From positions 646,763 through 710,762 of the forward strand of contig NZ_UIGI01000001.1 of NCBI RefSeq assembly GCF_900446255.1: a stretch of 64,000 bases of DNA, given 5' to 3'. The notes beneath the pieces are model-generated. The model had not been told where the DNA came from. It searched no databases and saw only the letters and a list, made by a program, of their open reading frames with translations. Positions 47,582 to 63,697 of this stretch are shown piece by piece; position 1 is the stretch's first letter; every line of letters starts with the position of its first letter. Source of the DNA: Buttiauxella agrestis (lineage in GTDB: Bacteria; Pseudomonadota; Gammaproteobacteria; Enterobacterales; Enterobacteriaceae). The translations under genes and the position numbers were made by a program.

Positions 47582-47584
47582 TCA

Positions 47585-47617: not shown

Positions 47618-47678
47618 AATGCTAGAGCAAAAAACACCCACAGTGTGTGAGGGAGATCGAAATTACGTCAGATGAGGA

Positions 47679-48410: not shown

Positions 48411-48510
48411 TACACTTTCTCGGTCGAGTCTGAACATGGAAATGAGCTACATAGTAAGCTAATCGCGCCGTATTCGCACCGTATGTACTTAAAAGATAAG
48501 AGAGCAACGT

Positions 48511-49428
48511 ATGAGCAGAACTCCCATTATTCTCGACACCGACCCAGGCATCGACGACGCCGTAGCCATTGCCGCCGCACTCTTTGCCCCACAGCTTGAT
48601 TTAAAGTTGCTGACGACGGTCGCCGGAAATGTCAGCGTCGAGAAAACCACCCGCAACGCCTTGCAATTGATGCACTTTTGGCAGAAGGATATTCCGGTCG
48701 CGCAGGGGGCTGCCACGCCACTGGTGCGTAAATTGCGCGATGCGGCTTATGTGCACGGCGAGTCCGGCATGGAAGGTTATGCGTTTGTGGAACATCAACG
48801 CCAGCCGCTCGATAAACCCGCTTTTCAGGCGATTTATGATTGTTTAAATGCCAGCCCTGAACCCGTCACGCTGGTGGCAATCGGCCCACTGACGAATATT
48901 GCGCTGCTGCTCACCCAATACCCTGGCTGTAAAGAGAAAATCAAACGCCTGGTGATTATGGGCGGATCGGCAGGACGCGGCAACTTCACGCCAAATGCCG
49001 AGTTTAATATTGCTATCGATCCCGAAGCGGGCGCGCGCGTATTTGAAAGTGGCCTGGAAATTGTGATGTGCGGTCTCGACGTCACCAACCAGGCGTTGCT
49101 GAGTCCGGAATATCTGGCGACGCTGTCAGAACTCAACCAAACCGGCAAAATGTTGCATGCGCTGTTTAGCCATTACCGCAGCGGCAGCATGGCGACGGGT
49201 TTACGCATGCACGATCTGTGCGCCATTGCCTGGCTGGTAAAACCGGAGTTATTTCAGACTCAACCGTGTTTTGTGGCGGTAGAAACTCACGGCGAATTTA
49301 CCGCAGGCACCACGGTTGTGGATATTGAAGGGCGTTATCAGCGCGAGCCAAACGCCCATGTGGCGTTGGATCTCGATGTTGCCGGTTTTCAGACATGGGT
49401 TGCAGAAGTCCTGGCACTAGCACCTTAA
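48511..49428 (+). CDS. rihC: Non-specific ribonucleoside hydrolase RihC
   Basis: Hydrolyses purine and pyrimidine ribonucleosides to base and ribose. 305 residues (E. coli 304). The Ca-binding motif [12 protein letters not shown] begins at residue 9, [16 protein letters not shown] and [19 protein letters not shown] follow, and the C-terminal catalytic histidine is in [12 protein letters not shown]. Strong match to E. coli RihC throughout. In E. coli it sits directly between ispH and dapB; here it is flanked on both sides by accessory sugar genes. Confidence 0.95.
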
Positions 49429-49472
49429 ATATTTAACGCGACGTAGATCGAGTTTCTTCGGCCAGACTATAG

Positions 49473-49488
49473 GGTTAATCGATTAACC
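49473..49488. promoter_or_regulatory. LacI-type operator O1 upstream of the cupin genes
   Basis: Perfect 16-bp palindrome GGTTAATCGATTAACC. A TATAGG-like -10 just left of it suggests repression by promoter occlusion. The same motif, with one or two changes, recurs at 55301 and 55423 beside the LacI gene. Confidence 0.85.
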
Positions 49489-49531
49489 TGCTATGCTGAT
49501 TAAGCAGTTCTCCTTGGGCCGGAGAAACAAA

Positions 49532-50095
49532 ATGAATATACCTGTCATCGTGCCACCGGGCGTGGCATTCCAGAACGGCCATTTCACGGCTGAAAATACC
49601 ATTAATAAAACCACGCACAGTGGCGATCTTGTGGGCGTCTTTCACGACGAAGCCGCATGGCTGGCGCTGCCTGCCGATACACCCATCTATCAGGTTGAAA
49701 TGCTGCAATCTGCGCAAGGGGAAGGTGAGCTTTTTGTCGGCACCACGCACCTCAATCCGGGGCGTGTTGGCGATGAGTTTTATATGACGCGTGGCCATTT
49801 CCATCAACGGCGTGAACAAGGCGAAGTGTATATTGGCTTGCGCGGAACGGGCCTGTTGCTGCTGCAAGACGAGCAGGGCAAGGCGCGGCTTGAGCAGGTT
49901 TCGGCGGGGTCAGTGCATATCATTCCAGGTGCAACAGCGCACCGCCTGATTAACACTGGCACCGAAGTTCTCTCTGCACTCGCCGTTTGGCCAACGATTG
50001 CTGGGCATGATTACGCGGCGTTGGCACAAGGCTTTGCGCTGCGAGTAGTTTTGCAGGACGACAAAATCCAGGCAAAAGAGGTGCAAAATGGCTGA
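49532..50095 (+). CDS. Cupin-type phosphoglucose isomerase family protein (first of a pair)
   Basis: 187 residues from the ATG with GGAG eight bases upstream. Cupin of the archaeal-type glucose-6-phosphate isomerase family: metal ligands in TRGHFHQRREQGEVYIGLRG (two histidines and a glutamate) and PGATAHRL (third histidine). These enzymes interconvert aldose and ketose phosphates without the PGI fold. It is likely to act on a phosphosugar delivered by the mannose-family PTS, with which it shares an operator. It overlaps the next gene by 8 bases. The true substrate is unknown. Confidence 0.82.
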   Translation: MNIPVIVPPGVAFQNGHFTAENTINKTTHSGDLVGVFHDEAAWLALPADTPIYQVEMLQSAQGEGELFVGTTHLNPGRVGDEFYMTRGHFHQRREQGEVYIGLRGTGLLLLQDEQGKARLEQVSAGSVHIIPGATAHRLINTGTEVLSALAVWPTIAGHDYAALAQGFALRVVLQDDKIQAKEVQNG

Positions 50096-50870
50096 TCAGC
50101 ACCTGAATTTTGGGTTGGATATGAAGATCCACCACCAGCCGATGGGTTTTAGCTACGGCGAAGAGGTGATCGGCCCGGTGCCGGAGATCCGTAAACTCGA
50201 TCAGATCCGCGCCTCGTTGCGCGATCCGTCGTGCAACGGGCCGGAGGATGTGTACGCGATCGTGATGGATGTGGCGCGTTTGCAGGACAGAGAAGAACTG
50301 AAGAAACGCATGTTGCTTTTTGGCGTGGTGACTTACGCTTCTGGTCGCCTGGGAGATGAGCCGATTCGCAGCCAGGGCCACATTCACCGTATCAGCAGCC
50401 ACAGCGGTTGGTCGCCACCCGAGCTATATGAAATCTGGCAGGGCAAAGCGATTATCTACATGCAGGAGTCTGTGGCGGACGATCCGGGGCGTTGCTTTGC
50501 GGTTTGCGCCGGGCCTGGCGAGAAAGTGCTGGTGCCGCCGGGTTGGGCGCACGCCACGATTTCAGCTTCGCCGGATGAACCGCTGACGTTTGGTGCCTGG
50601 TGCGACCGCGAATACGGTTTTGAATACGATGCCGTCCGCGCCTACAAAGGGCTGGCATGGTATCCGCTGTTGCAAGACGAGCATATTGCCTGGCAGCACA
50701 ACCGCAGCTATATGCCGGGGCGTTTGCAGGTGACTTCACCGCGCCAATATACCGAGTTTGGGATAACCGAGGAGCCGCTGTATCAGCAATTTATTGATGA
50801 TCCCGCGCGGTTTCAGTTTATTTCGAAGCCAGGGATAGTTGGGCAGAAGTGGGTAGGGTTTCATCCTTAA
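50088..50870 (+). CDS. Cupin-type phosphoglucose isomerase family protein (second of a pair)
   Basis: 260 residues; same family as the preceding gene but longer, with cupin motifs SQGHIHRISSHS, PPELYEIWQGKAIIYMQ and VPPGWAHATIS supplying His, His, Glu and His ligands. ARLQDREELKKRMLLFGVVTYASG precedes the cupin core. Its start lies within the first gene (8-base overlap), so the two are translationally coupled and may form a hetero-oligomer. A palindromic repeat follows and separates it from the convergent PTS genes. Confidence 0.82.
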   Translation: MADQHLNFGLDMKIHHQPMGFSYGEEVIGPVPEIRKLDQIRASLRDPSCNGPEDVYAIVMDVARLQDREELKKRMLLFGVVTYASGRLGDEPIRSQGHIHRISSHSGWSPPELYEIWQGKAIIYMQESVADDPGRCFAVCAGPGEKVLVPPGWAHATISASPDEPLTFGAWCDREYGFEYDAVRAYKGLAWYPLLQDEHIAWQHNRSYMPGRLQVTSPRQYTEFGITEEPLYQQFIDDPARFQFISKPGIVGQKWVGFHP

Positions 50871-50964: not shown

Positions 50965-51780
50965 CTAAGAAAATAACCCCACCGCCACGCCAACTGCCGC
51001 CAGCACCAGCAGTAACAGCATTGCTTTCACCGGAGACACGCCGCGTTTTGCCATCAAATACCAGGTGCCAATCACCACCAACAGCGGCAGCAGATTAGGG
51101 AAAATTCCGTCCAGCATCTGCTGCACATGAATATTCACGCCGTCTTTGGTGACAAACTCAAGCCCGGTGCCGAGCTTCACGTAGCTTGCCGCCACGCCGC
51201 CCATCACGAACACGCCTAATAACGATAGCGCTTCGCGCAGGCGTGTCGATTTACTGCTGACCAACATCTCAACGGACGTCGATCCCATGCGGTAGCCTTT
51301 CAGGAACAAGAACCACGAGCCAGGAATAATAATCGCCAGCCACGCCACGCAGTAAAACAGTGGCCCGAGGATATTCCCGCCCGCCGCCAGCGCCATGCCG
51401 ATACTGAGCAAAATTGGGATCAGCATGCCCGGAATCATCGAATCGCCAATCCCCGCCACGGGTCCCATCAGTCCGACTTTCAGGGTGTTGATGGTTTCGC
51501 CGTCGATGGGCTCGCCGTTGGCGCGTTTCTCTTCCAGCCCTAGCACCATGCCGTTCACAATCGCACCCAGCTGCGGTTCGGTGTTGTAGAACGACGCGTG
51601 GCGTTTGAGCATCTCTTTGCGTTGTTCGTCATCGGGATACAGCTTTTTCGCCACCGGCAACATACTCAAACAAAAGCCGAATGATTCAAGGCGCTCAAAG
51701 CTCATGGACGAAAGGTTGTACATCATCCAACTGCGCCAGCAGCGGCGCAGATCCTGGCGAGTGAGTTTACGTTCTTCCAT
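50965..51780 (-). CDS. PTS mannose-family transporter subunit IID
   Basis: 271 residues, IID component of a mannose/fructose/sorbose (Man) family PTS. N-terminal LTRQDLRRCWRSWMMYNLSSMSFERL and central GPVAGIGDSMIPGMLIPIL (about 130-148) are diagnostic, and the C-terminus has membrane segments ending AAVGVAVGLFS. It forms the membrane complex with IIC, which it overlaps by one base. Last gene of the operon, next to the palindromic repeat. Confidence 0.92.
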   Translation of the reverse strand: MEERKLTRQDLRRCWRSWMMYNLSSMSFERLESFGFCLSMLPVAKKLYPDDEQRKEMLKRHASFYNTEPQLGAIVNGMVLGLEEKRANGEPIDGETINTLKVGLMGPVAGIGDSMIPGMLIPILLSIGMALAAGGNILGPLFYCVAWLAIIIPGSWFLFLKGYRMGSTSVEMLVSSKSTRLREALSLLGVFVMGGVAASYVKLGTGLEFVTKDGVNIHVQQMLDGIFPNLLPLLVVIGTWYLMAKRGVSPVKAMLLLLVLAAVGVAVGLFS

Positions 51781-52577
51781 CAGAATTCATCCTCATCATC
51801 AGCGGGCGTGGAGGCTGTACGTTCAGCCTGCGGCTCAGGTTTGTAGTTGTAGTGAATCAGGGCCAGCAACGCGCCGACGATGACCAGCGCCACCATGTTC
51901 AGTTTCAGGAAAACGATGCAGATAAACCCCACGAGGAAGTAAATCAACATGCTGTAATTTTTGATGATTTGCTTAAGCAGAATCGCGATACCCACCGCTG
52001 GCAGAATGCCGCCGAGCACATTCATCGTCGAAAGCACGATGTGCGGCAGGCTGTCCATAAAGGCGTTGATGTACTGCGCGCCGAAATAGACTGCGATAAA
52101 CGTCGGAATAAAACGTATCAGGAAGTTGGTCGCCTGCGGCCAGATAGCACTGTTGAGATACACGCCACGCTCGTCGCCTTTTTCCAGCGCCAGATCTGCG
52201 CGGTGGTTCCACCAGGAATTGAGCACCATCATGGCGTTAAACAACACGGTGCCTGCAATACCGATAGTGGCCGCCAGCGCCACGGCCACTTCCGGGCCTT
52301 TATTGGAAAGAATACCCAGCGCGATAGCGGGGAAAGCTACAAAGTTGAGATCCGCAGGCATTGAGCCACCGGGGGTTACCATCGCGATATACACGGCCTG
52401 AACTGCCACGCCGATGATAATCCCGGTCTGCACATCGCCGAGAATGAAACCTACCAGCATCCCTGAAACCAATGGGCGGGTAATCAAATACCAGCCGCCG
52501 GTTAGCCCCAGCAGCCATGGGCTACTTAACGCACCGAGGTAACAGAGAATGCCGATCAAAGCCGCTTCAAAAGCCAT
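51780..52577 (-). CDS. PTS mannose-family transporter subunit IIC
   Basis: 265 residues, polytopic IIC component. Starts MAFEAALIGILCYLGAL, contains RPLVSGMLVGFILGDVQTGIIIG and AVYIAMVTPGGSMPADLNFVAFPAIALG, the sugar-channel region of the Man family. It forms the translocation unit with IID. The C-terminal tail is hydrophilic (QAERTASTPADDEDEF). Within the operon it is 11 bases from the IIB gene. Confidence 0.92.
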   Translation of the reverse strand: MAFEAALIGILCYLGALSSPWLLGLTGGWYLITRPLVSGMLVGFILGDVQTGIIIGVAVQAVYIAMVTPGGSMPADLNFVAFPAIALGILSNKGPEVAVALAATIGIAGTVLFNAMMVLNSWWNHRADLALEKGDERGVYLNSAIWPQATNFLIRFIPTFIAVYFGAQYINAFMDSLPHIVLSTMNVLGGILPAVGIAILLKQIIKNYSMLIYFLVGFICIVFLKLNMVALVIVGALLALIHYNYKPEPQAERTASTPADDEDEF

Positions 52578-52588
52578 ATTGCACTCCT

Positions 52589-53083
52589 TTATTTGAGTTT
52601 TTGGCGAGCGTCCTGCCAGCTGTAGCTGCTGGCATCGGGCACCAGACGAAATTCAATCTGATGCCCGCGCTGCAAGAGGTAGTCGAACGCAGCACTCTCT
52701 TCGGGGTTGACGGACTGATTCGGGCCTATGGTAGTGGTGTTGGCTCGCGCGCTCATCGGGCCGACGTTGATTTTTTTATTGCTGTTTTGCAGGCTGATAC
52801 CTGCTTCTTCGATGCGCTTTAACGTGACCGGCGATTTGCCAATCACGAAGTAATGCTTCTCGCTGGCGATGATTTTTGGCAGTTTTTCGATGGCGGTGGC
52901 GGTGTCAAACAGCCAGACTTTGATGTCCTGAACCGCCCCTTTCATGACTGATGAAAGCAAAGGATCGGCGGCGACGGCATCGTCGATGGCAATAATCCCA
53001 TCGCACGGCAACTCTTTTGCCCAGCGGGTGACGAGCTGGCCGTGGATCACGCGGTCGTCGATTCGTACAAATGAAATGCTCAT
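52589..53083 (-). CDS. PTS mannose-family transporter subunit IIB
   Basis: 164 residues, cytoplasmic IIB phosphotransfer protein. The phosphorylated histidine is H14 in RIDDRVIHGQLVTRW, unlike the cysteine of other PTS IIB families. It accepts phosphate from the separate IIA protein and passes it to the incoming sugar. The IIA and IIB domains are separate genes here, whereas E. coli ManX is a fused IIAB. Confidence 0.93.
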   Translation of the reverse strand: MSISFVRIDDRVIHGQLVTRWAKELPCDGIIAIDDAVAADPLLSSVMKGAVQDIKVWLFDTATAIEKLPKIIASEKHYFVIGKSPVTLKRIEEAGISLQNSNKKINVGPMSARANTTTIGPNQSVNPEESAAFDYLLQRGHQIEFRLVPDASSYSWQDARQKLK

Positions 53084-53092
53084 CGTTGCCCC

Positions 53093-53521
53093 TTAAAAAT
53101 CATCTGACTGCGTAGTTTCAGCAAGTGTCGCCTGCACCAGCGTGTCCTGGGTGTTTGCAAGCAGTTGCGCGGTGGCCTGTTCGACATCCGCGAGATCTTT
53201 TATCTCATCGCTTAACAGCACCATGGGGAAGTTGACGCCACCCAGAACAGTGACGGGCGGTTGCGTATCAGGGTTAAAAGCGTAGTGGCAGGCGATATTC
53301 CACGGCGTGCCGCTTTGCAAATCGCACAGCACCACGACGCCATCAGCATCTTTGCTGGCCTGTTTCAACACCGCCGCAAACTCATCGCCAAAGCTATTAA
53401 TGCCTTTGTTTTCAGTGAGCATGACCGGGAATACATGCGGCAATTCGCCGTAGACCATGCGTGAACTTGCCAGCAGGGCTTCCGCCAGCGAGCCGTGTGT
53501 TGCCAGAATGACGTTGATCAT
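53093..53521 (-). CDS. PTS mannose-family transporter subunit IIA
   Basis: 142 residues, IIA component with phosphorylated H9 in VILATHGSLAEALLASS. DGVVVLCDLQSGTPWNIACHYAF is the conserved second active-site block. It transfers phosphate from HPr to IIB. It lies two bases after the isomerase gene and nine bases before IIB. Confidence 0.92.
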   Translation of the reverse strand: MINVILATHGSLAEALLASSRMVYGELPHVFPVMLTENKGINSFGDEFAAVLKQASKDADGVVVLCDLQSGTPWNIACHYAFNPDTQPPVTVLGGVNFPMVLLSDEIKDLADVEQATAQLLANTQDTLVQATLAETTQSDDF

Positions 53522-53523
53522 AA

Positions 53524-55272
53524 TTAACCCCTTACCCAGGCTTTCATGGTGGCGAGTTGCTGACCGGCACCCCGACCATACGGTGAAATGCGGTATTCCC
53601 CGACGGCAGCAGGAATGATGAAGGTTTCGGCGTAATGCACCACAAACGGCTCGAACGCGCCGCTCGGGCTTTCAACCAGAGCCTCGTCGCCTTCCACCAG
53701 ATTCAGGACATTCACGCCGCCGTGCGTGTGGTGTGTGACGGGCTGCGTAAACCAGTGGCGACGCGTTTCAATAAACTCGCGTTCATGCAGGCCGGTGCGC
53801 TCCTCGCGCCAGCCATCGCCTTCGGCAATTGGTTCAAAATGGTTAACCAGATGCTCAGTGACCCATTGGGTATCGCGTTGCCAGTCAATGACTTGTGCGC
53901 CATGGTCCAGATGCACCGGGCGCGGTAAACCGTCTAAACCCAGGCGGCCCCAGTCCCATAATTTGAAGGTGAAAATATACGGCGTCGCGCTGATCTCCAG
54001 CACCATGGCTCCCGATCCGGAACAGTGCACGGTGCCTGCCGGTATCAGGAAGTGATCGTGTTTACGCGCCTGGAAACGGTTAACGAATTTCTCGTCATCA
54101 AACGCTTTTTCGCCACGCTGGGCGCGGGCCAAATCGTCGAGCATTTCCTGCGGGTCGATCCCCGTTTTTGTGCCGAGATAGACTTCTGCGCCCGGCTCGG
54201 CTTCCAGCAAGTAATAGCTCTCATCCTGGGTGTAATGCATCCCGAAATGCTGCTGGATGTATTCGGTAATCGGGTGAACCTGGAAACTCAAATTCTGCCC
54301 GCCGATGGTATCGAGGAAGTCGAAACGGATCGGGAACTCTGCGCCAAATCGGGCATGAACGCGCTCGCCAAGTAGCGGACGCGGGTAGAGCAACACCAGA
54401 TCTTGTGAGGGGATCTCGATCCGCACATCACCAAAACGCAGTAACAGGCTGTTCTCCTCGGGCACACAGTCAAAACACCAAGCGTAATTTGGCTTTGAGG
54501 GATCGAGATCAAACTTGTCTTTCATCCATTGCCCGCCCCAGACACCGGGGTCGAAGAATGGCACCACGCGGAACGGTTGTTGCGTGGTTTGTTGCAGGCC
54601 ATGGCGCAGCGCATCTCCGCTCACCATCACCGGTTGCTGCGCATTATTGGTATCGAGCAGGAAATCCGCGCGCTTGAGCAGCGGGGTTTTATGGCGGTCG
54701 AACACGCGCCACTCAATGAAAAAGGCACGTTTGTAGCGACGCAGAATATCTTCATTAACGTTATCTGCCCCCCAGTTGCCCAATTCTCCACGGCGAAAAC
54801 GCTGCTGAATTTCCCAGCGGGCGAGATCGGCATAAATCAGCACATCACCCGGATGAACTAAGGCAGCACCTGGGCCGTAAATCACCACCAGGCCAGACGT
54901 CGTTTCTGCGACTTCACGCCGTACTTGCGCCAGTTTATCCGGGCAGAAAAACTCTGGTAATTCGTGGCAGGAAAGCACGCCGAACACCCGGTCATCCGTC
55001 AAATTGCGGGCCAGTAAATCATGCAGGTGCTGTTCACTCAGACGCGCGGATTCAGCGTTGATAATGTGGTGCGGGTTAAGTTGTTCAATGAGTTGTGTGT
55101 GCAGTTCGTCGAGTTGAACGCCGGGATAACAGTCAATCACCAGCACCGTTTTGCCCGAAGCGGAAAGCCGTTCGCTCACGGCTTGTTTGATGGCGGACCA
55201 TCCCTGCCATGCCTGATGCTCAAACCCCGAAACGCGCACTTCGGGATACTTATCGTATGATGCCAGATGCAT
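53524..55272 (-). CDS. Class I mannose-6-phosphate isomerase with an extra N-terminal domain
   Basis: 582 residues, far longer than ManA (about 390). The C-terminal two thirds is a type I phosphomannose isomerase/cupin: FFDPGVWGGQWM, then NLSFQVHPITEYIQ (Gln and His ligands), DESYYLLEAEPGAEVYLG (Glu) and LIPAGTVHCSGSG (His). The first about 220 residues (TVLVIDCYPGVQLDELHTQL, GVLSCHELPEFF, GLVVIYGPGAALVHPGDVLIYADLARWEIQQRF) form a separate alpha/beta domain of unclear role; it recalls a nucleotide kinase fold without an obvious P-loop. First gene of the PTS operon, so it likely converts the imported hexose phosphate. Confidence 0.85.
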   Translation of the reverse strand: MHLASYDKYPEVRVSGFEHQAWQGWSAIKQAVSERLSASGKTVLVIDCYPGVQLDELHTQLIEQLNPHHIINAESARLSEQHLHDLLARNLTDDRVFGVLSCHELPEFFCPDKLAQVRREVAETTSGLVVIYGPGAALVHPGDVLIYADLARWEIQQRFRRGELGNWGADNVNEDILRRYKRAFFIEWRVFDRHKTPLLKRADFLLDTNNAQQPVMVSGDALRHGLQQTTQQPFRVVPFFDPGVWGGQWMKDKFDLDPSKPNYAWCFDCVPEENSLLLRFGDVRIEIPSQDLVLLYPRPLLGERVHARFGAEFPIRFDFLDTIGGQNLSFQVHPITEYIQQHFGMHYTQDESYYLLEAEPGAEVYLGTKTGIDPQEMLDDLARAQRGEKAFDDEKFVNRFQARKHDHFLIPAGTVHCSGSGAMVLEISATPYIFTFKLWDWGRLGLDGLPRPVHLDHGAQVIDWQRDTQWVTEHLVNHFEPIAEGDGWREERTGLHEREFIETRRHWFTQPVTHHTHGGVNVLNLVEGDEALVESPSGAFEPFVVHYAETFIIPAAVGEYRISPYGRGAGQQLATMKAWVRG

Positions 55273-55300
55273 AATCTTCTCCCTGTTTCTGATGAACTAA

Positions 55301-55316
55301 GATTAATCGATTAACC
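55301..55316. promoter_or_regulatory. LacI-type operator O2 upstream of the isomerase/PTS operon
   Basis: GATTAATCGATTAACC, containing the perfect 12-bp core TTAATCGATTAA. It differs from O1 (GGTTAATCGATTAACC) at one base. It lies 29 bases before the isomerase start codon. Confidence 0.82.
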
Positions 55317-55387
55317 CATTTTGAACAGCGTGGTAAACGCGATTAACCCGCCATTTTTAACAAGGTGTTGCTTAAAGTTGAGTTATC

Positions 55388-55403
55388 TGTGACGGCATTC
55401 ACA
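55388..55403. promoter_or_regulatory. CRP binding site
   Basis: TGTGACGGCATTCACA matches TGTGA-N6-TCACA exactly. It is placed between the two LacI operators in the divergent promoter region, so it can activate the PTS operon, the regulator gene, or both under low glucose. Confidence 0.82.
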
Positions 55404-55422
55404 TGGAAATATGCATTTTTTT

Positions 55423-55438
55423 GGTTATTCGATTAATC
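55423..55438. promoter_or_regulatory. LacI-type operator O3 upstream of the LacI gene
   Basis: GGTTATTCGATTAATC, matching O1 at 14 of 16 positions. Its place 33 bases before the regulator start suggests autoregulation and, with O2 about 122 bases away, possible DNA looping. Confidence 0.75.
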
Positions 55439-55470
55439 TGTGTGGAATTGCTTAATTTTGAGGAGTGCTA

Positions 55471-56481
55471 ATGAGCACTGTCACCCTTGCCCAGGTTGCA
55501 AAACAGGCCGAAGTTTCAACCGCTACCGTTTCAATGGTGTTGCGAAATCGGGGCCGTATTTCTGACGCCACTCGCCAACGCGTGCTCAAAGCGCTGGATG
55601 ATTTGGGTTACGTGTATAACCAAACGGCGGCCAATTTACGCAACCGCACCAGCAATCAGGTTGGGTTGTTACTCCACGACATCACCAACCCGTTTTACGG
55701 TGAAATGACCGCTGGTCTGAGCCAGGAAATGGAGCGTCACGATCTGCTGCTCTTTCTGGCAAACAGCGAAGAATCCGGCGAGCGGCAGCAAAAGTTTGTC
55801 GATTCTCTGATGCGCAATAACGCCTGCGGCATGGTGTTGTGTGCGGCACGAGAAACGCCGCCGCTGTTTTTTGAAACGCTGAAACGGCGCAACGTTCCGG
55901 CGATTATGGTGGTGCGCCCGATGGACGACGTGGATTTCGATTTTGTCGGCACCGATAACTTCCTTGGCACCCAACTGGCAACGCAACATCTGCTGCGTCT
56001 GGGGCATCGTCATATTGCGTTTATTGGTGGGAGTGAAAATTCCATCAGCCGCGCGCAACGTATTGGCGGCTACAGCAGCAAATTGCTCGAACATCGTATT
56101 CAGCCGAAAAGCGAGTGGGTGGTGTCTTCTCTTGCCAGCCAAAGTGACGGCGCGCGCGTGGCCGAGGAGCTGTTCCGTTATTACCCGGAAATCACGGCGG
56201 CGGTCTGTTATCAGGATATCGTGGCGCTGGGCGTGATGCAGACGCTGCGCAAAATGGGCCGCCAGCCGGGTGTCGATTTTGCGCTGGTGGGGTTTGACGA
56301 TATTACCGAGGCATCTTTGGTTCAGCCTGCGTTGACCACCGTTTCGGTGGCGGCTAAAGAGATTGGCCGTAAAGCCGGGGAGCTGTTATTTAGCCGCATT
56401 CAGGGCAACGACGAGCCGCCAAAACGTATTATTCTCCCGCCCACTCTGGTGGTACGGGAGTCTTGCGGGTTTGGGCTATGA
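55471..56481 (+). CDS. LacI-family regulator of the PTS/isomerase genes
   Basis: 336 residues. N-terminal LacI helix-turn-helix (about 4-24: [20 protein letters not shown]) and hinge region, followed by a periplasmic-binding-protein-like effector domain (from about 60: [20 protein letters not shown]). The pattern resembles MalI-type regulators. The start has GAGGAG six bases upstream. Divergent from the isomerase/PTS operon and flanked by three near-identical palindromes. The inducer is probably a phosphosugar or the transported sugar (inference). Its last six bases overlap the convergent glycosidase gene. Confidence 0.9.
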
Positions 56482-57552
56482 ATAGGTTAAGCGCCTGACC
56501 AGTTCCATTTCACTGTGGCGGAAGGGAATGCCATATTCATCAAGCACATCGTGGAACCACAGGTGCGCGTAATCCACGCCACATTTGCGCACTGACGGCC
56601 AGGGGAGGGTGGTTTGCGTTTTGCCGCGCACCAGCCCCCACTGGAAACAGCCGACATTCAGGGCGGCAAGCAGCGGCAGTTGTTCCTCCATCACGCAGCC
56701 GACATGCCGCGCCAACCATTCGGTGCATAACAGCGGACGATCGAATGTTTGCCAGTAGCGCAATACTTGCAGCATTTTCGGTGTGGCCAGATAGGCGTGG
56801 AAGCTGATCACATCCGAAAGATCGGCTGCTGCCTTATCGATCGGATGGGCAAAAAACTCCGCTTCCGGTTCGTCAGGATCTTGCGAAATGTGCCAGGCAC
56901 CCACGGTCAGTGGCTGCCGGGGATCTTCGTCACGTGCCCAGGCGAAAACCTGTGGCAGCAGCTCCAGCGCAAAATACTCCAGCTTTTCATCGAACTGGAT
57001 TTCCTCAAGCCCGCTGGCAAACGTGCCGCGGTTGCCAGGCTCGTTGTACAAATCCCAGATGGCGATACGCGAATCGTTTTTGAAATGGCGCACAATGTCG
57101 CGCACATAGCGCTCAAGCTGCGGCCACATCTCGCGGTTACATATCGTTTCACGCCCGGGACTCGCCGCCGCCTGGCTGTTGTGTTTGCCGGGTTCGGGTG
57201 CTTTTTGAGGCCCTAAAAATGGCTCATCTCCGGAAAAACCACAGTCGTCCATCAGCGTCAGCATGACTTTTATTTGATGGCGTTCGGCGATACGCAGAAA
57301 GCTCTCGATGCGCATCAGCAATCCATCGCGATCGTGCTGCCAGACGATAAACGGCAGGTTGATGCGCAGTTGGTTATAGCCGATCTCCTGCGCCCAACCG
57401 AGTTCCTGATCGATGGTTTCGGGATCAAAGGTTTCGCGCTGCCATAGCTCTGTCCAGTTTACGGCGCTGCGGGGCAGGTAATTAAACCCGCAAATCCAAA
57501 CCTGATTTTTGTGCCACTGCGCGGCCTGTTGTTTGCTCCATTGTGTACGCAT
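56476..57552 (-). CDS. Cytoplasmic clan GH-A glycosidase (GH5-like)
   Basis: 358 residues with no signal peptide. (beta/alpha)8 glycoside hydrolase pattern: [16 protein letters not shown] at the N-terminus, acid/base E171 in WDLYNEPGN and nucleophile E278 in [10 protein letters not shown], both after the expected strands. Related database entries are usually called cellulase-family or endo-beta-glycosidase, but a cytoplasmic enzyme next to a symporter more likely cleaves a small imported glycoside. It is the last gene of an operon with three Gfo/Idh oxidoreductases and a GPH transporter, 10 bases after the transporter. Confidence 0.82.
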
Positions 57553-57562
57553 GACGTGTCTC

Positions 57563-59104
57563 CTACGGTGATTCCGGCGTTAAGCTTGATACCGATTTAC
57601 GCCCTGGCGTGTTGCCCCAGACTTTGTCGTATTCATAGCCGGTCAGGTCTTTGATGACTTTGCGGGTTTCCATATCGCAGTCTGCGAGGTTGCCACCCAG
57701 TTTGAGTCGGGCGACTTCTTTAATCAGCGTTTTATGGGATTCGCGGGTGAGTTTGAATTTAAAGGTCATCCAGAAACTGATCGCCAGCAATGCTGTGGTG
57801 GCAAAGACCATTAGCCCGACAATCGCGTGTAACGCTTCAATAGGCTGCTCGCCCTGGCCTTTAACAAAACCGCTTTCTTCCAGCACCACACCAATCAGCA
57901 TGATGGCCAGCGCCACGGTACTTTTCCGGGTTAAGACCATCACGCCGGCAAAGATGCCTTCGCGGCGTTTTTTAGTCACGATTTCATCGACGTCAGGAAT
58001 AAAGCTGTAAATATTCCAGGGGATAAAATAAAGACCCGCACGTGAAATACCTAAAATGACAAACACAGCGGAGAACAAGATCACGGATACATTGATATTG
58101 TTGATATAGGCATAAAACAGGAAAGCTAATACTGCGAAAATAAAACTATAAGATAAACGCAGTGCGCCGGAAGGCGTGAAATTCAATTTGCTGAGTAACA
58201 GCATAAAGACAAATGTTCCCGGAACAGAAACAAATGCGGCCACGCTTAAATAACCTGAAACGGCGGCGGCATCCTGATGTAATCCGTAAACGACATAATA
58301 AGTAAATACTGATCCGAAAACGTCCATCGCGGTGAATGAAGCAATATAAATAATAATATGCTGGCGGAACATGCGGATCTTAAATGAAGAGAGTAAATCT
58401 AACACCAGGCTTTTTAAATGGTGCCAAAGATTACCGCTATTTGCTCCTTCGGGTTCGGGTTCAAACTCTTCACGCACATCTTTCGCTTCCCAGGTGCACA
58501 TCCAGGTGGTAAATACCGCGAGGCAAAAAATCGCTGAGAAAAGCAGGCCCGTGTAAGTGTACGTCATCGAGTTATCTTTACCGGTGAACTGCATGATGAC
58601 ACCCGGCACCGACACCGCCAGAAAACCGCCAAGCTGCGAGCAGATCATACGCACACCGGATAAACGGGCGCGTTCGGTGTAGCGGTTGGTCATCTCTGCC
58701 GCCAGCGTTTCCCATGGCACCAGCACCATTGCGGAGAGCAGTTCGATTGAGAGATAAGTGCCGAGATAATACCAGTAGCCCATATCCGTCACCCAAAGCA
58801 GGGCGTACAAAAACATCAGTGGGGCGCTGAGTAATAAAAAGAAGCGGCGGCGACCGAAGCGTTTACCCAGCCAGGTATTAGCGAAGTTATCGGTGATGTA
58901 ACCCATAATTGGACTTAATACCGCATCTATCACTCGGGCAATGGCAAATATCGAACCGGCTTCTAATACCGATAATCCACAATAAGTGGTGTAGAAAAAT
59001 AGAAGCCAGGTGCCAATAATAGCAAATGCGCCACCACCAAATAAATCGGTAACACCATATCCTATGGCTGTTCCATAGCCAACTCTGCGTTCTGTAGGTT
59101 TCAT
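57563..59104 (-). CDS. GPH-family glycoside:cation symporter (MelB-like)
   Basis: 513 residues, twelve membrane helices. Glycoside-pentoside-hexuronide:cation symporter pattern: [25 protein letters not shown] at the start, [18 protein letters not shown] in helix 2, [15 protein letters not shown], and the central hydrophilic loop near 215-235. Likely imports the glycoside processed by the neighbouring enzymes, using Na+ or H+. The C-terminus has a long cytoplasmic tail (about 60 residues). 48 bases separate it from the preceding Gfo/Idh gene. Confidence 0.9.
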
Positions 59105-59152
59105 ATTATTATTCCATTTCTGTGTAGGGTGAAAAGGAAAACATTATTGTTG

Positions 59153-60169
59153 TTAAATTTTTATCCAGTTCCTGGTTATCGAAGACTGGTAAATCGCTTC
59201 GACCATGCGCAGGGATGTTTCCGCCTGGTGTATATCAACGTAATTATGATTGTCGGGTGTTTGTATTGAATGATAGAAATGATTAATTGCCTGCTGGTGG
59301 CTGCTTCCCCAGTAACATTTCTGGACTTCACGTGGTATTTCATCGCAGGCCAATAAACTTTTCTCTTCGCCAGTCATAAACCACAGATTATTGTGATGAA
59401 GTTGCAGCAGGCCATCTTCGCAATGGATCTCAAGAAATAGCGGTGAGTCGGTGGTATGACAGTTGGTCGCGTAAAAAATCCCTCGCGCCCCGTTGGCTAA
59501 TTGCATATTTGCCATCGCGGTGTCCTCGGCCTGGGTGGCATTGCTGAGAAAACTGCTCTCCACCACGCCTTTCAGCGACTCAACTCCGCCAGCAAACCAC
59601 TGCATTAAATCCAGCGTATGAATCGCCTGATTGATAAGCAGGCTGCCGCCTTCGGTGGCAAAACGTCCGCGCCACGGGCTTTGCGCATAGTAATCTTGCG
59701 TTCGATTCCATGTCAGCACCGCTTTGATACTCAGCACTTTTCCGTAGGTGTTCGCCTCCAGCAATGATTTGATCTTCTGGCTGCTCGGGTTCAGTCGGTT
59801 CTGATAACAGACACCAAGCTGGCTCGTTGCGTGCTTCAGTGCGGTTTTAATGTCTTTTACTTCGCCTGGATTCAGCGCCACCGGCTTTTCCGTGAAGACG
59901 TGTTTCCCGGCGGCAAGGGCGGCAAGAATCACTTCTTTGTGTGCGACATGCGGCGTGCAGACGTGTACCACATCAATTTCGGTATCACACAGCATTTCGC
60001 GGTAATCGGCGTAATAACGGCAAGCGTAACGCTCGGCCAGTAAGTGACCCTTTGCGGAGTCTGTTTCGACAATTGCCCGAAGCCTGCAGGCTGGATTCGA
60101 TTGAATTGCCTCGACGTGCAAGGTGTGGATTGCTCCACACCCGACGACTGCGGCCTGTGTCGTCTTCAT
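59153..60169 (-). CDS. Gfo/Idh/MocA-family oxidoreductase (third of three)
   Basis: 338 residues from the ATG (MKTTQAAVVGCGAIHTLHVEA); 14 upstream codons are rejected. NAD(P)-binding GCGAIH at 10-15 and the family EKP motif at 94-96 (HVFTEKPVALN). NQAIHTLDLMQWFAGG holds the likely catalytic residues. The family oxidises or reduces sugars and sugar derivatives, often at C3, and includes redox-type glycosidases. It begins two bases after the stop of the previous dehydrogenase. Confidence 0.87.
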   Translation of the reverse strand: MKTTQAAVVGCGAIHTLHVEAIQSNPACRLRAIVETDSAKGHLLAERYACRYYADYREMLCDTEIDVVHVCTPHVAHKEVILAALAAGKHVFTEKPVALNPGEVKDIKTALKHATSQLGVCYQNRLNPSSQKIKSLLEANTYGKVLSIKAVLTWNRTQDYYAQSPWRGRFATEGGSLLINQAIHTLDLMQWFAGGVESLKGVVESSFLSNATQAEDTAMANMQLANGARGIFYATNCHTTDSPLFLEIHCEDGLLQLHHNNLWFMTGEEKSLLACDEIPREVQKCYWGSSHQQAINHFYHSIQTPDNHNYVDIHQAETSLRMVEAIYQSSITRNWIKI

Positions 60170-60171
60170 CG

Positions 60172-61239
60172 CTATTGCACTCCGTTTGCCAGCATTTGCG
60201 CGCGCACGCACAGTTCGGCGGCTTTGAAGGCATGCGCCTGAGTCATCGCCTTTTCGGTGCGATTCAGGCAGTCAAGAATCAGTTCGCCGAAGAACGGGAA
60301 GCCCACATTCCCGGCAACCGGATAGCGGAATTCACCTTCTTTATTAACCAGATACACCACATCTTGTTCCTGGCGAGTGATGTCGACGTATTTGCGGATT
60401 TCGATATAGCCGTCGGTGCCGAGCAGCGTCAGGCGTCCGTCGCCCCAGGTGCTGAGTCCTGCTGGTGTGAACCAGTCGCAGCGGAAATAGCCGCTGGCCC
60501 CGTTCTCGCCTTTGAGCATCGCATCGCCGAAATCTTCAAATTCAGGGTGTTGGGGATGGGCGAAGTTGTTGGTTTGCGCGGCAACAACCTGTGCTTCGCT
60601 GTTGCCCGTGTAAAACAGGAATTGTTCAATCTGATGGCTGCCAATATCACAAAGAATGCCGCCGAAGCGTTTCTTAAAGTAGAACCAGTCCGGGCGACCC
60701 TGGCCTTCACGGTGTGGTCCCATACCCAGAGTCTGAATCACCCGACCAATTGCGCCGTCGTGCACCAGTTGCCCGGCAAAGACCGCACTTTCAACGTGAA
60801 GTCGTTCGCTGTAATACACCGCATATTTGCGTCCGGTTTCGGCGACTTTCGCTTTTGCCGCAGCCAGTTGTTCGAGGGTGGTCAGCGGAGCTTTATCGGT
60901 GAAATAGTCTTTTCCTGCGTCCATCACTTTCAGGCCAAGCGCGCAACGTTCATCAGGAATCGCCGCTCCGGCAACCAGTTTGACGCCCGGATCGGCCAGT
61001 ATCGCTTCAAGAGACGGCGCAATTTTCGCCTGTGGGTATTGCTTAACAAACTGCTCGATTTTTTGTGGGTCAGGATCGTAAACCCATTTCAGCGTCGCGC
61101 CCGCTTCAATCAGGCCATTGCACATGCCGTAGATATGGCCGTGATCGAGTGCGGCGGCGGCAAAAACAAAATCATCTGGCTGCACGACTGGCTGCGGTTT
61201 GCCTTTTGGCGCGTAATTCATACCGTCTTTGATGCTCAT
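60172..61239 (-). CDS. Divergent Gfo/Idh/MocA-family oxidoreductase (second of three)
   Basis: 355 residues. The Rossmann region is atypical (AAAALDHGHIYGM in place of GxGxxG, about 27-39) and the EKP motif is DKAP at 115-118, with the lysine kept. CDIGSHQIEQFLFY supplies the conserved histidine. YYSERLHVESAVFAGQLV and GPHREGQGRPDWFY are characteristic of this subgroup. It may use the cofactor differently from its two neighbours. It is tightly packed between them (2-base gaps on both sides). Confidence 0.85.
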   Translation of the reverse strand: MSIKDGMNYAPKGKPQPVVQPDDFVFAAAALDHGHIYGMCNGLIEAGATLKWVYDPDPQKIEQFVKQYPQAKIAPSLEAILADPGVKLVAGAAIPDERCALGLKVMDAGKDYFTDKAPLTTLEQLAAAKAKVAETGRKYAVYYSERLHVESAVFAGQLVHDGAIGRVIQTLGMGPHREGQGRPDWFYFKKRFGGILCDIGSHQIEQFLFYTGNSEAQVVAAQTNNFAHPQHPEFEDFGDAMLKGENGASGYFRCDWFTPAGLSTWGDGRLTLLGTDGYIEIRKYVDITRQEQDVVYLVNKEGEFRYPVAGNVGFPFFGELILDCLNRTEKAMTQAHAFKAAELCVRAQMLANGVQ

Positions 61240-61241
61240 GT

Positions 61242-62417
61242 TTATGCCCCTTTATCCATATCTTTACCCAATGGAATCGCCTCTTCATTGGCGAAATTTT
61301 CCACTGAGGCGGATTTCTCAAAGAAATGCGGTGCCATTTTCACTAACCCGCCCGTCTGGTAATACGGGTCGCTTGCGCTAATGGGCAGCGAAACAATACT
61401 GCGAGTGATGGCTGATTTATAAATTGCGGTGATGAGTTCCAGCGAACGCTTGCCTTGGGGGCCGTCCACTAGCGGTGCGGTGCCCGTTTGCAACGCGTGC
61501 AGGAAGTTTTCGATTTGCCCGGTATGCAGCGTCCAGGTCAGACGCGGCACAGTCTGGTAACTATCTTCAAGCTGATTTTCAAGCGAGGTATCGCGCGCGT
61601 CGATGGGGAAACCGTTGGGGGCGGCGATGCTGGCGAATTTATCCCACGGCGCAGAAATGCGCGCTTTTTCACCCTGAATCACAATTTTCTGGTCTTCACC
61701 GTGGTGTACAACCGATGCGGTAAGTTGCGTCAATGCGCCACTGTCGTATTTGAAAATCGCAGCGCTGAGATCTTCGACTTCGGCGTTGTCATGGGAAACA
61801 TTGGTGGTGATGGCGACCACTTCCGTCGGGAAACCCAACATCCACTGAATGGCGTCGATGTGATGCACGGCATGGTTTAGCGTGCAGCCGCCGCCTTCTT
61901 TTTCCCAGGTGCCACGCCACCACAGGTCGTAATAGGAGTGACCGCGCCACCAGAAGGAATCCACCTGCGCATGGCAAATTTTGCCGATTTGGTCGGTTTC
62001 GAGCACTTTTTTCAAACGCCAGAAAGCATCGGTAAAGCGGTTTTGAGCGATGATCGACAATGTTTTTCCGCTGGCCTCGGCCGCGGCAATCATCGCATCA
62101 CATTCCTGGAGTGACGCGGCCATTGGCTTTTCGCACAACACATGTTTGCCTGCATTTAACGCATCGATAGAAATAGCGGCGTGTACATACGGTGGGGTGC
62201 AGATATCAAATACGTCAATGGAGGGGTCATTAAGAATATCTTGATGGTTGCTGTAGATTTTGGCTTCCGTCAGCCCGTAATGTTTCTTCTTTTCCTCGGC
62301 TTTTTCTGGGTAGATATCAACCAGAGCGACAATCTGACAGAGGTCAGGAAATTCAAGATAACCCTGAATGTGATTGTGGGAAATATTACCGGTTCCAATA
62401 ATAGCGATTCTTTGCAT
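61242..62417 (-). CDS. Gfo/Idh/MocA-family oxidoreductase (first of three)
   Basis: 391 residues, canonical member: IGTGNISHNH at 7-16, CEKP at 95-98, and NHAVHHIDAIQWMLGFP with the likely catalytic histidine/aspartate pair. DSFWWRGHSYYDLWWRGTWEKEGGG is an aromatic-rich substrate region. The C-terminal about 50 residues extend beyond most members. First gene of the operon; GAGAG precedes the start. Similar dehydrogenases (for example YcjS/YcjT type or inositol dehydrogenases) oxidise sugar hydroxyls with NAD. Confidence 0.87.
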   Translation of the reverse strand: MQRIAIIGTGNISHNHIQGYLEFPDLCQIVALVDIYPEKAEEKKKHYGLTEAKIYSNHQDILNDPSIDVFDICTPPYVHAAISIDALNAGKHVLCEKPMAASLQECDAMIAAAEASGKTLSIIAQNRFTDAFWRLKKVLETDQIGKICHAQVDSFWWRGHSYYDLWWRGTWEKEGGGCTLNHAVHHIDAIQWMLGFPTEVVAITTNVSHDNAEVEDLSAAIFKYDSGALTQLTASVVHHGEDQKIVIQGEKARISAPWDKFASIAAPNGFPIDARDTSLENQLEDSYQTVPRLTWTLHTGQIENFLHALQTGTAPLVDGPQGKRSLELITAIYKSAITRSIVSLPISASDPYYQTGGLVKMAPHFFEKSASVENFANEEAIPLGKDMDKGA

Positions 62418-62475
62418 TGTGCTCTCACTTATACAAAAAAATAGGACTTATTTTTATCAGGAATCATTTTTTGAG

Positions 62476-62504
62476 AGCATAGTTATGGTTTTTTTTGCAC
62501 ACAA
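62476..62504 (-). promoter_or_regulatory. Putative promoter of the Gfo/Idh-GPH-glycosidase operon
   Basis: On the minus strand, a weak -35 TTGTGT (complement of 62499-62504), a 17-base spacer and a -10 TATGCT (complement of 62476-62481). The start would lie near 62470, about 50 bases before the first gene. Confidence 0.5.
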
Positions 62505-62505
62505 C

Positions 62506-62542
62506 CGCTATTTATGACAGGAATTGCACGGCATAAATAACG
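62506..62542. repeat. Inverted repeat in the divergent promoter region
   Basis: CGCTATTTATG (62506-62516) and CATAAATAACG (62532-62542) are complementary at 10 of 11 positions, 15 bases apart. The placement beside the -35 of the operon and upstream of the divergent LacI gene makes it a candidate operator. It is unlike the GGTTAATCGATTAACC motif, consistent with a different regulator. Confidence 0.55.
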
Positions 62543-62629
62543 CTGTTGTGATCGAAGAAAAATGCTTGTGATGAGAAAGAGTTAGTTATGAAAATAATGT
62601 CAAAACGCTAATGAGGCATCGATCACAAA

Positions 62630-63697
62630 ATGACGGGTAAGCTGAAAATCAAAGAGATAGCCGGGCTGACAGGGCTTTCACCAAGCACGGTATCAAGGGT
62701 GCTGGCGGGTAAAAATAATGTTAGCCCGCAGGCAAAAGAAAAGGTTTTTTACCATGCTCGTTATATGGGTATTTTGCGAGATATTCCCGCCAGTCGTTTA
62801 CTCATGAATTCATTATTAGTGTGTGCTCCGGCGGCGGCTTTTACCCCAAATGGCGATCGTTATTATTACGAAGTGATTCAGGGTATTATTTCAGAAATAT
62901 CGCATTATGATATTCATGTTAAAAAATGCTCGCTGGATATTAACGAAGCAGACACGACTTTATTTATGAAACACGTTAACGAAGACGATGTCGATGGAGT
63001 AATAATCATTGGGATTGATGATGAATCTTTGTATCGACTGGCCGCAGAAAGCAATAAACCTGTGGTGACAATTAATGCCAGAGATAAAAAGATGCGCCTT
63101 GATTGCGTCTCGCCAGATCATTCTTCCATTGGTTATAGCGCGGCAAAACACTTGCTAGAAAAAGGCCACCGCCAGGTACTGCTCTTCACCGATTTGCGCC
63201 GTGAAACCATGATCCAGCGTCTCGAAGGGTTCAAGCGAGCCTGCCAGGATCACCACCTTGTATTTGATGAATCGGAAAATTTGCTGGTCACGAAAGGTTA
63301 TGGCGAGCCAGAAGTGCGGGCGAATTTTAAAAAGTACCTCCAACAACGTTCAAAGCAACAGCTGCCTTCGGCCATATTATGTGGCGGGGGAGCCATTGCG
63401 CGAGCGGTGCTCGGCGAGCTGAAAAACCATCAGCTCCAGGTGCCTGAAGATATTTCCGTCATGAGTTGCGCTTACTCACATGAAATGGACGAAATAAAAT
63501 CGCTGGGATTAACCGCGGCTTTTCAGCCTTGCCGCGAACTCGGCAGTGAAGCGGTTTGTATCCTGCAAAGTCGCTTAACGCGCAACATCAGCTCCCGGTT
63601 TAATTTATTGCTCCAGGGTTCCATTGAGTTGGGGAATTCAGTGGCAGATGTGAACTGGCGACGCCGGGAATTGTATCAAACGCATTCAATTCCCTGA
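62630..63697 (+). CDS. LacI-family regulator of the Gfo/Idh-glycosidase operon
   Basis: 355 residues. DNA-binding domain at about 4-55 (LKIKEIAGLTGLSPSTVSRVLAGKNNVS) with the hinge helix region, then a type I periplasmic-binding-protein fold: GVIIIGIDDESLYRLAAESNKPVVTIN, CVSPDHSSIGYSAAKHLLEKGHRQVLL. Ligand unknown. It is divergent from the operon at 56476-62417. The ribosome-binding site is poor (GAGG about 13 bases upstream), which may mean low expression. Base composition is AT-rich for the region, especially the first 500 bases. Confidence 0.88.
   Translation: MTGKLKIKEIAGLTGLSPSTVSRVLAGKNNVSPQAKEKVFYHARYMGILRDIPASRLLMNSLLVCAPAAAFTPNGDRYYYEVIQGIISEISHYDIHVKKCSLDINEADTTLFMKHVNEDDVDGVIIIGIDDESLYRLAAESNKPVVTINARDKKMRLDCVSPDHSSIGYSAAKHLLEKGHRQVLLFTDLRRETMIQRLEGFKRACQDHHLVFDESENLLVTKGYGEPEVRANFKKYLQQRSKQQLPSAILCGGGAIARAVLGELKNHQLQVPEDISVMSCAYSHEMDEIKSLGLTAAFQPCRELGSEAVCILQSRLTRNISSRFNLLLQGSIELGNSVADVNWRRRELYQTHSIP

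Follow-up and report, generated by a model that had tools for sequence, protein, structure and literature searches.

Taken as a whole, the six-gene locus analysed here is best explained as a LacI-controlled catabolic operon, a reading to which we assign a probability of about 0.4. On the best reading, an oxidation coupled with a reduction would rewrite a rare sugar or uronide that is released by a glycosidase. The locus belongs to a 64,000-nucleotide stretch of a Buttiauxella genome (the window), in which the operon DhA-DhB-DhC-GPH-GH on the minus strand and a divergent LacI gene on the plus strand occupy positions 56476-63697:

56476..57552, minus strand: GH, glycosidase of GH5-like (clan A) type, cytoplasmic; last in the operon and optional (PF00150, 25.6 bits)
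57563..59104, minus strand: GPH-family sugar:cation symporter (MFS_2 PF13347, 157.1 bits, over its own cut-off)
59153..60169, minus strand: DhC, Gfo/Idh/MocA dehydrogenase (PF01408, 92.8 bits; TEKP; GCGAIH)
60172..61239, minus strand: DhB, Gfo/Idh/MocA protein (PF01408, 27.3 bits; loop LDHGH; DKAP)
61242..62417, minus strand: DhA, Gfo/Idh/MocA dehydrogenase (PF01408, 107.2 bits; CEKP; GTGNIS)
62475..62528, minus strand: conserved block in the LacI-DhA spacer (alignment of 9 spacers)
62630..63697, plus strand: LacI-family regulator, divergent from the operon (PF00356, PF13377)

All six genes that the earlier note had placed here are present at these coordinates, and its picture of one operon combining uptake, three divergent Gfo/Idh enzymes and a cytoplasmic GH-A-type glycosidase with a dedicated LacI regulator is supported by our analysis. 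The operon is tightly packed, with intergenic gaps of 2, 2, 48 and 10 bases from DhA to GH, and is faced by the divergent LacI gene. For DhC, a start at the listed GTG (60211) gives an overlap with DhB, and the ATG at 60169 lies 2 bases past the DhB stop codon. A neighbourhood search found LacI, DhA, DhB, DhC and GPH together in 27 genomes, so that their association is more than chance; among these genomes, this core sits at no fewer than three chromosomal sites, and 17 of the 27 carry a fourth Gfo/Idh gene, Dh4. A near match to the operon was absent from the E. coli collection, and a distant search of the same collection with the three dehydrogenases of a relative (L096) gave no match. The symporter scores 137.4 bits against TIGR00792, under the cut-off of 231.35.

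A relative of the LacI regulator (39-99% identical) adjoins the core in 27/27 loci, although it is cut by the contig end in L153. Between LacI and DhA, most of the about 54 columns of the block at 62475..62528 are invariant in the nine aligned spacers (seven from Buttiauxella, the window included, plus L093 and L164), and this block is a probable candidate for the promoter/operator of the operon. When 13 LacI spacers were scanned for 14-base palindromes with at most one mismatch, none was found in those of the window, L014, L015 and L016, and a TGCAAATATTTGCA-type palindrome recurred in six Dh4-type spacers. Scans for promoters and terminators returned signals no more frequent than in shuffled sequences.

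PF01408 lies above its cut-off of 24 in each of the three dehydrogenases, and PF22725 is likewise matched in all of them (Pfam). The active-site Lys of the EKP-type motif and the His are kept in 84/84 aligned Gfo/Idh rows, and the three divergent enzymes are apparently active. The best solved relatives of DhA are 3q2i, which we take to be a sugar 3-dehydrogenase, 3q2k, DgpA (7xr9) and a glucuronide-3-dehydrogenase (8tdi); those of DhC include the same entries.

DhB had been singled out for its DKAP motif and for lacking a clear GxGxxG, and both observations were correct. The GxGxx pattern occurs in 52/52 rows of the other five classes versus 1/32 DhB rows, and in the alignment the commonest forms of the first loop are three residues shorter than that of DhA; the absence of GxGxxG is a trait of the DhB subfamily. 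K116, D198 and H202 are invariant in 15 rows, and an HxH motif is invariant in the DhB alignment. Because Lys, Asp and His are kept in 32/32 rows, with the Asp four positions before the His, DhB is probably a working dehydrogenase; we considered that it might be a degenerate enzyme and rejected this on account of the same invariant residues. Its solved relatives, 2p2s (463 bits, E 7e-138; 'putative oxidoreductase') and 3u3x (267 bits, E 2e-78; 'oxidoreductase'), belong to the DhB subfamily, and their entries name no activity.

DhB has a partner well beyond the Enterobacteriaceae. DhA and DhY form one clade, with an SH-aLRT support of 99 by a quick method in a tree that included another 25 Gfo/Idh proteins, drawn from three genomes, and with support of 100/98 in a tree without these 25; the dehydrogenase trees exclude five doubtful rows. 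DhY adjoins DhB in 15 of the 16 loci examined from other Pseudomonadota, and DhA adjoins DhB in Paenibacillus. DhA/DhY and DhB are thus evidently an old couple. The conserved unit is DhA/DhY plus DhB, often with a third Gfo/Idh gene, and it reaches Alphaproteobacteria and Paenibacillus. That three such enzymes stand together, which the earlier note stressed, is in part a local count: the most widespread conserved unit is the pair, accompanied by zero to two additional Gfo/Idh genes. Nor is the pair found everywhere, as a DhB relative occurs without a DhA-type gene in L045, L098, L099 and L122.

The neighbourhoods of the pair give hints on the product. Glucuronate-pathway genes lie near it in 5/16 loci, four of the five from one family: mannonate dehydratase, glucuronate isomerase and a mannitol-dehydrogenase-family gene in L111, L113, L117 and L120, and mannonate dehydratase alone in L112. 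In L111 the mannonate dehydratase and the glucuronate isomerase both exceed their NCBIfam cut-offs, and in L097 a fructuronate reductase, also over its cut-off, follows DhB. These genes point to a product at the level of a hexuronate, a suggestion that is not valid for every owner of the core, as a mannonate dehydratase search of the core-bearing genome G046 gave no match at 1e-20.

The glycosidase is the most variable member of the locus. Its only Pfam match, PF00150, is marginal (25.6 bits versus a cut-off of 23.5), no PDB match was obtained by sequence search, and a profile search returned seven matches of mixed kinds (xylanase, mannanase, GH42-like; best E 2e-4), which offer no usable family. 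Both catalytic glutamates reported before, E171 (in NEP) and E278 (in CTEW), are invariant in 19/19 aligned relatives, the N-terminus MRTQWSKQQ does not, by eye, resemble a signal peptide, in agreement with the earlier note, and TAGGAG precedes the ATG. An obligate place in the operon was considered and rejected, for in the 27 core genomes GH is intact at the operon end in 11, broken in 2 and absent in 14. The opposite candidate, a GH unrelated to the core, is weakened by the 13 of these 14 genomes that encode GH elsewhere and by its co-occurrence with DhA: among 246 genomes of the family it is present in 19/20 DhA-positive versus 11/226 DhA-less ones, part of which reflects ecology or kinship, since an unlinked control gene is also commoner with DhA (9/20 versus 2/23 genomes). 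The proposed tie between glycosidase and dehydrogenases thus stands as a co-occurrence but not as an obligate one, and GH often travels in a LacI-GH-transporter cassette of its own. Near GH in Aeromonas (L035) we read galT/galK-like genes from the translations, and in Polymorphobacter the annotation gives GH a family 43 gene and an aldose epimerase as neighbours; the two neighbourhoods disagree on the substrate.

This variability bears on the idea that the substrates of the dehydrogenases are free sugars or cyclitols unconnected with GH, which would be a passenger sharing only the promoter. Besides the absences just given, GH is degenerate in G002, and in five of the eight loci listed from elsewhere it is immediately preceded by a LacI gene and immediately followed by a sugar transporter. 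Among the models, one for inositol 2-dehydrogenase gives the Dh proteins their highest score, which is still far under its cut-off. The operon glycosidases fall into two separate clades (single clade rejected, p-AU 0.0007, in a test that assumes a group named before the tree was seen, which was not quite the case here); this tree omits the long-branch L106-L108 and fragments below 330 residues (L042, L153, L011, L013) and counts L002, L003 and L010 as operon-borne. The same result can be turned against the passenger idea, as glycosidases of both clades occupy the 3' end of the operon, which suggests selection for the link. With GH also encoded elsewhere in nearly all genomes that lack it in the operon, and present in 12/13 DhA-positive genera versus 8/141 others, we regard a mere passenger as unlikely.

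Published keto-sugar systems share features with the locus, and a variant of levoglucosan lgdA-lgdB1-lgdB2-lgdC, E. coli ycj or Bacteroides BT2156-2159 would account for the enzyme superfamily, the uptake and the regulator theme, which are all alike. It is nevertheless highly improbable, as the NCBIfam scores fall far under the cut-offs and the defining parts are missing. Against the levoglucosan dehydrogenase model (cut-off 650), DhA, DhC and DhB reach 99.8, 89.5 and 22.2 bits, and DhA scores 49.3 of 750 bits against BT_2158 and 35.9 of 650 against BT_2159. Pfam detected neither PF01261 nor PF06439 among the six cluster proteins; as the cluster therefore holds neither a PF01261 eliminase nor a 3-keto-disaccharide hydrolase, it does not appear to encode any of these three pathways. 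The nearest genome, G001, stood in for the window's own assembly in genome-wide scans; it has eight PF01261 matches, seven elsewhere and one on a mannonate dehydratase, and none on C60, the contig holding the cluster. Away from the cluster, it carries a Gfo/Idh-PF01261-Gfo/Idh row at C25:44014-46543. In E. coli, the two Gfo/Idh enzymes of the YcjQ/YcjR/YcjS system reportedly rewrite the configuration of a glycoside via keto intermediates, with YcjR being a PF01261-type epimerase. The earlier comparison with ycj consequently keeps its Gfo/Idh theme but loses its PF01261 protein, a YcjR-type counterpart being absent from the G001 cluster contig.

The levoglucosan cluster likewise has two Gfo/Idh enzymes (LgdA, LgdC), sugar uptake and a LacI gene (PMC7676230, PMC10066097); its pathway uses PF01261 eliminase/hydratase proteins, whereas the window cluster has no PF01261. 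With Bacteroides BT_2158/BT_2159 the Gfo/Idh fold is common, and the PF06439 domain that the 3-ketotrehalose hydrolase BT2157 carries (PMC9007349) is found at one relative locus, L100, and not in the window cluster. DgpA of the puerarin/C-glycoside system is the third-best solved relative of DhA, but the two-subunit eliminase of that system (PMC10628242) has no counterpart among the six window genes. A described pathway with this gene set was not found in the open-access PMC literature.

We infer the following course, including its substrate, oxidation position and step order and the epimerisation by the couple. GPH would import a rare sugar, either free or as a glycoside, and a cytoplasmic glycosidase, encoded in the operon or elsewhere in the genome, would free the rare sugar. 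DhA and DhB would then work as a couple at the same ring position, one oxidising a hydroxyl with NAD+ and the other reducing the ketone to the opposite configuration, for a net epimerisation. DhC, joined by Dh4 in relatives, may catalyse a step of this type that is directed at a second position or at the glycoside, and the product, a common hexose or hexuronate, would enter central metabolism. That the chemistry is arranged around a deglycosylation step, and at C3, is likewise inference.

Redox-assisted cleavage by Gfo/Idh enzymes alone is a different proposal, which we consider possible though doubtful: DhA would oxidise the glycoside at C3, DhB would carry out or assist elimination and hydration, DhC would reduce the keto sugar, and GH would take the directly hydrolysable linkages. 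It is favoured by 3q2i/3q2k, the glucuronide-3-dehydrogenase and DgpA as the best solved relatives of DhA and DhC, and plain dehydrogenation leaves the invariant HxH of DhB unexplained. L100 encodes a 3-keto-disaccharide hydrolase (PF06439) in a Dh4-DhB neighbourhood, which points to 3-keto-glycoside cleavage rather than epimerisation. YjhC, an E. coli homologue of levoglucosan dehydrogenase, performs oxidation, elimination, hydration and reduction alone with NAD+ (PMC7315737), and SqgA and GH109, of similar fold, cleave glycosides in this way (PMC10755693). In these cases one Gfo/Idh-like fold alone can cleave or hydrate, whereas the window holds a multi-enzyme set, and DhA matches solved YjhC (6o15) with 67 bits, among many equal or better matches. 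Weighing against cleavage, DhB retains the dehydrogenase Lys-Asp-His, both the eliminase and the hydratase of the levoglucosan pathway belong to PF01261, a family missing from the G001 cluster contig, and the eliminase/hydratase of an Agrobacterium O-glycoside operon are annotated as sugar phosphate isomerases/epimerases; the seven PF01261 matches elsewhere in G001 could, though, be borrowed for the purpose.

Beyond the reading by paired oxidation and reduction, we tentatively suggest, as a proposal that may well prove wrong, that DhA/DhY and DhB constitute an undescribed, phylum-crossing two-enzyme module that rewrites, or cleaves without an eliminase, glycosides or uronides. The altered loop and the HxH of DhB would then reflect a role beyond ordinary dehydrogenation, and the Enterobacteriaceae would have added the symporter and, at least twice, a GH5-like glycosidase. 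Gfo/Idh keto-sugar pathways are an alternative to plain hydrolysis. The published operons consulted carry recognisable eliminases, whereas this set is without them and has a conserved partner, DhB, whose two solved relatives are listed without an activity. The gene set marks those genomes that would be expected to use the substrate, and it yields a prediction of the product.

The six-gene cluster lies exactly where the earlier note had placed it (56476-63697), as re-reading the genes in the window confirmed. The window comes from a Buttiauxella species: the six proteins share 96-100% identity with their counterparts in Buttiauxella agrestis ATCC 33320 (locus L014). The cluster and its catabolic neighbors are arranged as follows:

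38830-50870: sugar-acid cluster with genes for an IlvD-type dehydratase, DapA-like and SDR proteins, and a 2-dehydro-3-deoxy-6-phosphogalactonate aldolase
50965-56481: mannose-type PTS operon, recognized by reading of the sequence
Minus strand, from 56476: operon of DhA, DhB and DhC (Gfo/Idh/MocA dehydrogenases), a GPH-type symporter (GPH) and a glycosidase (GH), with intergenic gaps of 2, 2, 48 and 10 bases
About 62475-62528: conserved block in the LacI-DhA spacer, common to seven Buttiauxella and two related spacers (alignment)
62630-63697, plus strand: LacI gene, facing the minus-strand operon

Pfam bears out the assignments of the cluster proteins, with the glycosidase as a marginal GH5 member (25.6 bits; cut-off 23.5) that has no match in NCBIfam and no relative in the PDB by sequence search. 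The conserved spacer block probably contains the promoter and operator. A TGCAAATATTTGCA-type palindrome occupies the same place in LacI spacers of relatives with a fourth Gfo/Idh gene, Dh4 (L036, L040, L090, L092, L095, L096), and was not found in the Buttiauxella LacI spacers; the two LacI regulator types (about 40% identical) therefore probably read different operators. The gene for the MalI-like LacI regulator of the PTS operon (309.3 bits; cut-off 310) overlaps the GH gene tail-to-tail by 6 bases, and this operon also encodes a 582-aa mannose-6-phosphate-isomerase-like fusion without an NCBIfam match at 1e-10. By reading of translations, the sugar-acid cluster additionally harbors kinase-like, SMP-30-like, cupin-like and two MFS-like genes; catabolic islands are abundant in the stretch before dapB.

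The earlier note had described one of the three dehydrogenases as having DKAP in place of EKP and no clear GxGxxG, and rightly so for DhB: in an alignment, the GxGxx pattern is present in 1 of 32 DhB rows as against all 52 rows of other Gfo/Idh classes, and the commonest DhB loops (e.g., AAAALDHGH) are three residues shorter than that of DhA. The active-site Lys and His are found in 84/84 aligned Gfo/Idh rows, and DhB alone among the classes carries an Asp four positions before the His (32/32 rows). The oddity of DhB thus resides in its cofactor loop and leaves the catalytic residues unaffected. Two solved structures of the DhB subfamily, 2p2s and 3u3x, are listed without activity.

A LacI gene followed by DhA, DhB, DhC and the symporter in one run is present in 27 distinct genomes, a count that takes the identical loci L036/L159 and L040/L167 once each, includes L042 although its DhC is split, and leaves out the rearranged L097. 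At a first site, dapB adjoins LacI in seven of eight Buttiauxella loci; in the eighth, L153 (genome G002), the contig ends before it. Dh4 occurs in 17 of the 27 genomes, including Trabulsiella and Pluralibacter, at a site flanked by MsrA- and YtfL-like genes in 14, by YtfL alone in two and by neither in L161. L093 and L164, both lacking Dh4, have yet another location in common, the third, next to an NlpA-like gene.

The glycosidase gene at the end of the run is intact in 11 genomes, broken in two (fragments with stops in L153, split in L042) and absent from 14. The earlier note had suggested that the dehydrogenase trio performs sequential oxidation and reduction around the deglycosylation of an unusual glycoside; this core idea survives in changed form. 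In L153, the three dehydrogenases and GPH align from end to end, and the contig boundary truncates LacI. Thirteen of the 14 genomes lacking the operon glycosidase encode one elsewhere, the sole exception being G004. In our tree, the operon glycosidases split into two clades; Rahnella-type stand-alone copies join the first, and stand-alone copies of other genera the second. A single clade was rejected (p-AU 0.0007); the gene would either have entered the operon twice or have also left it. L014 and L015 are both titled B. agrestis ATCC 33320, but identity to the GH protein of the window is 96% for the former and 90% for the latter; L015, flagged UNVERIFIED_ORG, probably belongs to a different species. 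L031, titled Chryseobacterium, carries an enterobacterial GH grouping with Cedecea and Dryocola copies in the tree and is probably a contaminated or mislabelled assembly.

Among the 246 family genomes covered by each of the DhA and glycosidase searches, assumed to be the identical draw, DhA occurs in 20, the glycosidase in 30 and both in 19. The glycosidase is hence found in 19 of 20 genomes with DhA versus 11 of 226 without it (Fisher 1e-19, uncorrected for kinship); counted per genus, the figures are 12 of 13 versus 8 of 141. Genome size does not account for this association, as 1 of 23 same-family genomes of at least 3.5 Mb outside the DhA-positive set possesses the glycosidase, a set that leaves out G039 (49% complete) and whose presence in the DhA search is confirmed for only some members. 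An unlinked catabolic gene of the window, used as control, occurs in 9/20 DhA-positive genomes versus 2/23 of these large ones; some background association consequently exists, smaller than that of the glycosidase. That the glycosidase is unconnected with the dehydrogenases we consider quite unlikely. In five of eight stand-alone loci inspected, it is immediately preceded by a LacI gene and immediately followed by a GPH-like transporter (L017, L025, L026 with a split transporter, L032, L033); at L035 the transporter is present and LacI adjoins a second copy, and ABC-type genes accompany those of L030 and L039. A GH relative (about 55% identity) is found in 17 E. coli plasmid records, and in the one inspected (L105, NZ_CP086621.1) IS2 lies between the LacI and GH genes.

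Beyond the family, DhB forms are 43-68% identical. The 16 loci of other Pseudomonadota inspected (L103, L104, L109-L122; L109-L111 are Alphaproteobacteria) represent all 11 phylum-search matches outside the order, two of four strong matches from another search and three of 195 plasmid records. DhY adjoins DhB in 15 of these loci, and a third Gfo/Idh gene stands beside both in nine. A tree including DhC, Dh4, DhX and 25 further Gfo/Idh proteins of three genomes groups DhA and DhY in a single clade (SH-aLRT 99 by a quick method; 100/98 without those 25), and in Paenibacillus (L044) DhA and DhB adjoin an AraC-like gene, a regulator by reading of its translation. By virtue of this adjacency, the common clade and the Paenibacillus pair, the couple of DhA or DhY with DhB is the widest conserved unit. 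Exceptions are L045, L098, L099 and L122, where DhB has no DhA-type neighbor; in L100-L102 a Dh4-type gene takes the place of the DhA-type gene. The lone DhB relative of L098 and L099 (about 60%) is divergently oriented to two porin-like genes (by reading) and to a gene for a periplasmic pectate lyase, whose PF06917 assignment was checked in L098.

A mannonate dehydratase gene lies near the couple in five of the 16 loci (L111, L112, L113, L117, L120; in L113 some 4.5 kb off, beyond transporter genes), four of which also contain glucuronate isomerase and a mannitol-dehydrogenase-family gene. In L097 (1-12552), the core dehydrogenases are rearranged around a nickel-dependent lactate-racemase-type (LarA) gene (598.9 bits; cut-off 460) and glycerate kinase, together with a PF00731 gene and others resembling racemase maturation genes (by reading); fructuronate reductase comes after DhB. 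In L100, the neighbors of DhB are a Dh4-like gene, a transporter resembling Nramp and a 3-keto-disaccharide hydrolase. Such surroundings suggest keto-sugar chemistry and partly also hexuronate products, although G046, an owner of the core, speaks against such products, having yielded no mannonate dehydratase match.

According to passages in PMC7676230, PMC10066097 and PMC10628242, redox cleavage operons provide C3 oxidation, followed by an eliminase and hydratase, and a Gfo/Idh reductase; the levoglucosan eliminase/hydratase belongs to PF01261, that of Agrobacterium is sugar-phosphate-isomerase-like, and the puerarin eliminase is a two-subunit enzyme. The cluster-bearing contig of G001, the genome nearest to the window, gave no PF01261 match. 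With no eliminase, several Gfo/Idh enzymes would most simply serve epimerization: one would oxidize, and another would reduce with stereo-inversion. We assign this reading a probability of 0.4. The rival reading, which we rate somewhat less probable, is glycoside cleavage by Gfo/Idh enzymes alone, as demonstrated for YjhC (PMC7315737) and also for NAD-dependent glycosidases of like fold (PMC10755693). Possibly, eliminases are borrowed from other genomic loci; a Gfo/Idh-PF01261-Gfo/Idh row does occur elsewhere in G001 (C25:44014-46543). This row resembles the E. coli ycjQRS arrangement. A search of the open-access literature yielded no description of such a system; the cluster is a genuine and conserved catabolic system whose general kind is known.
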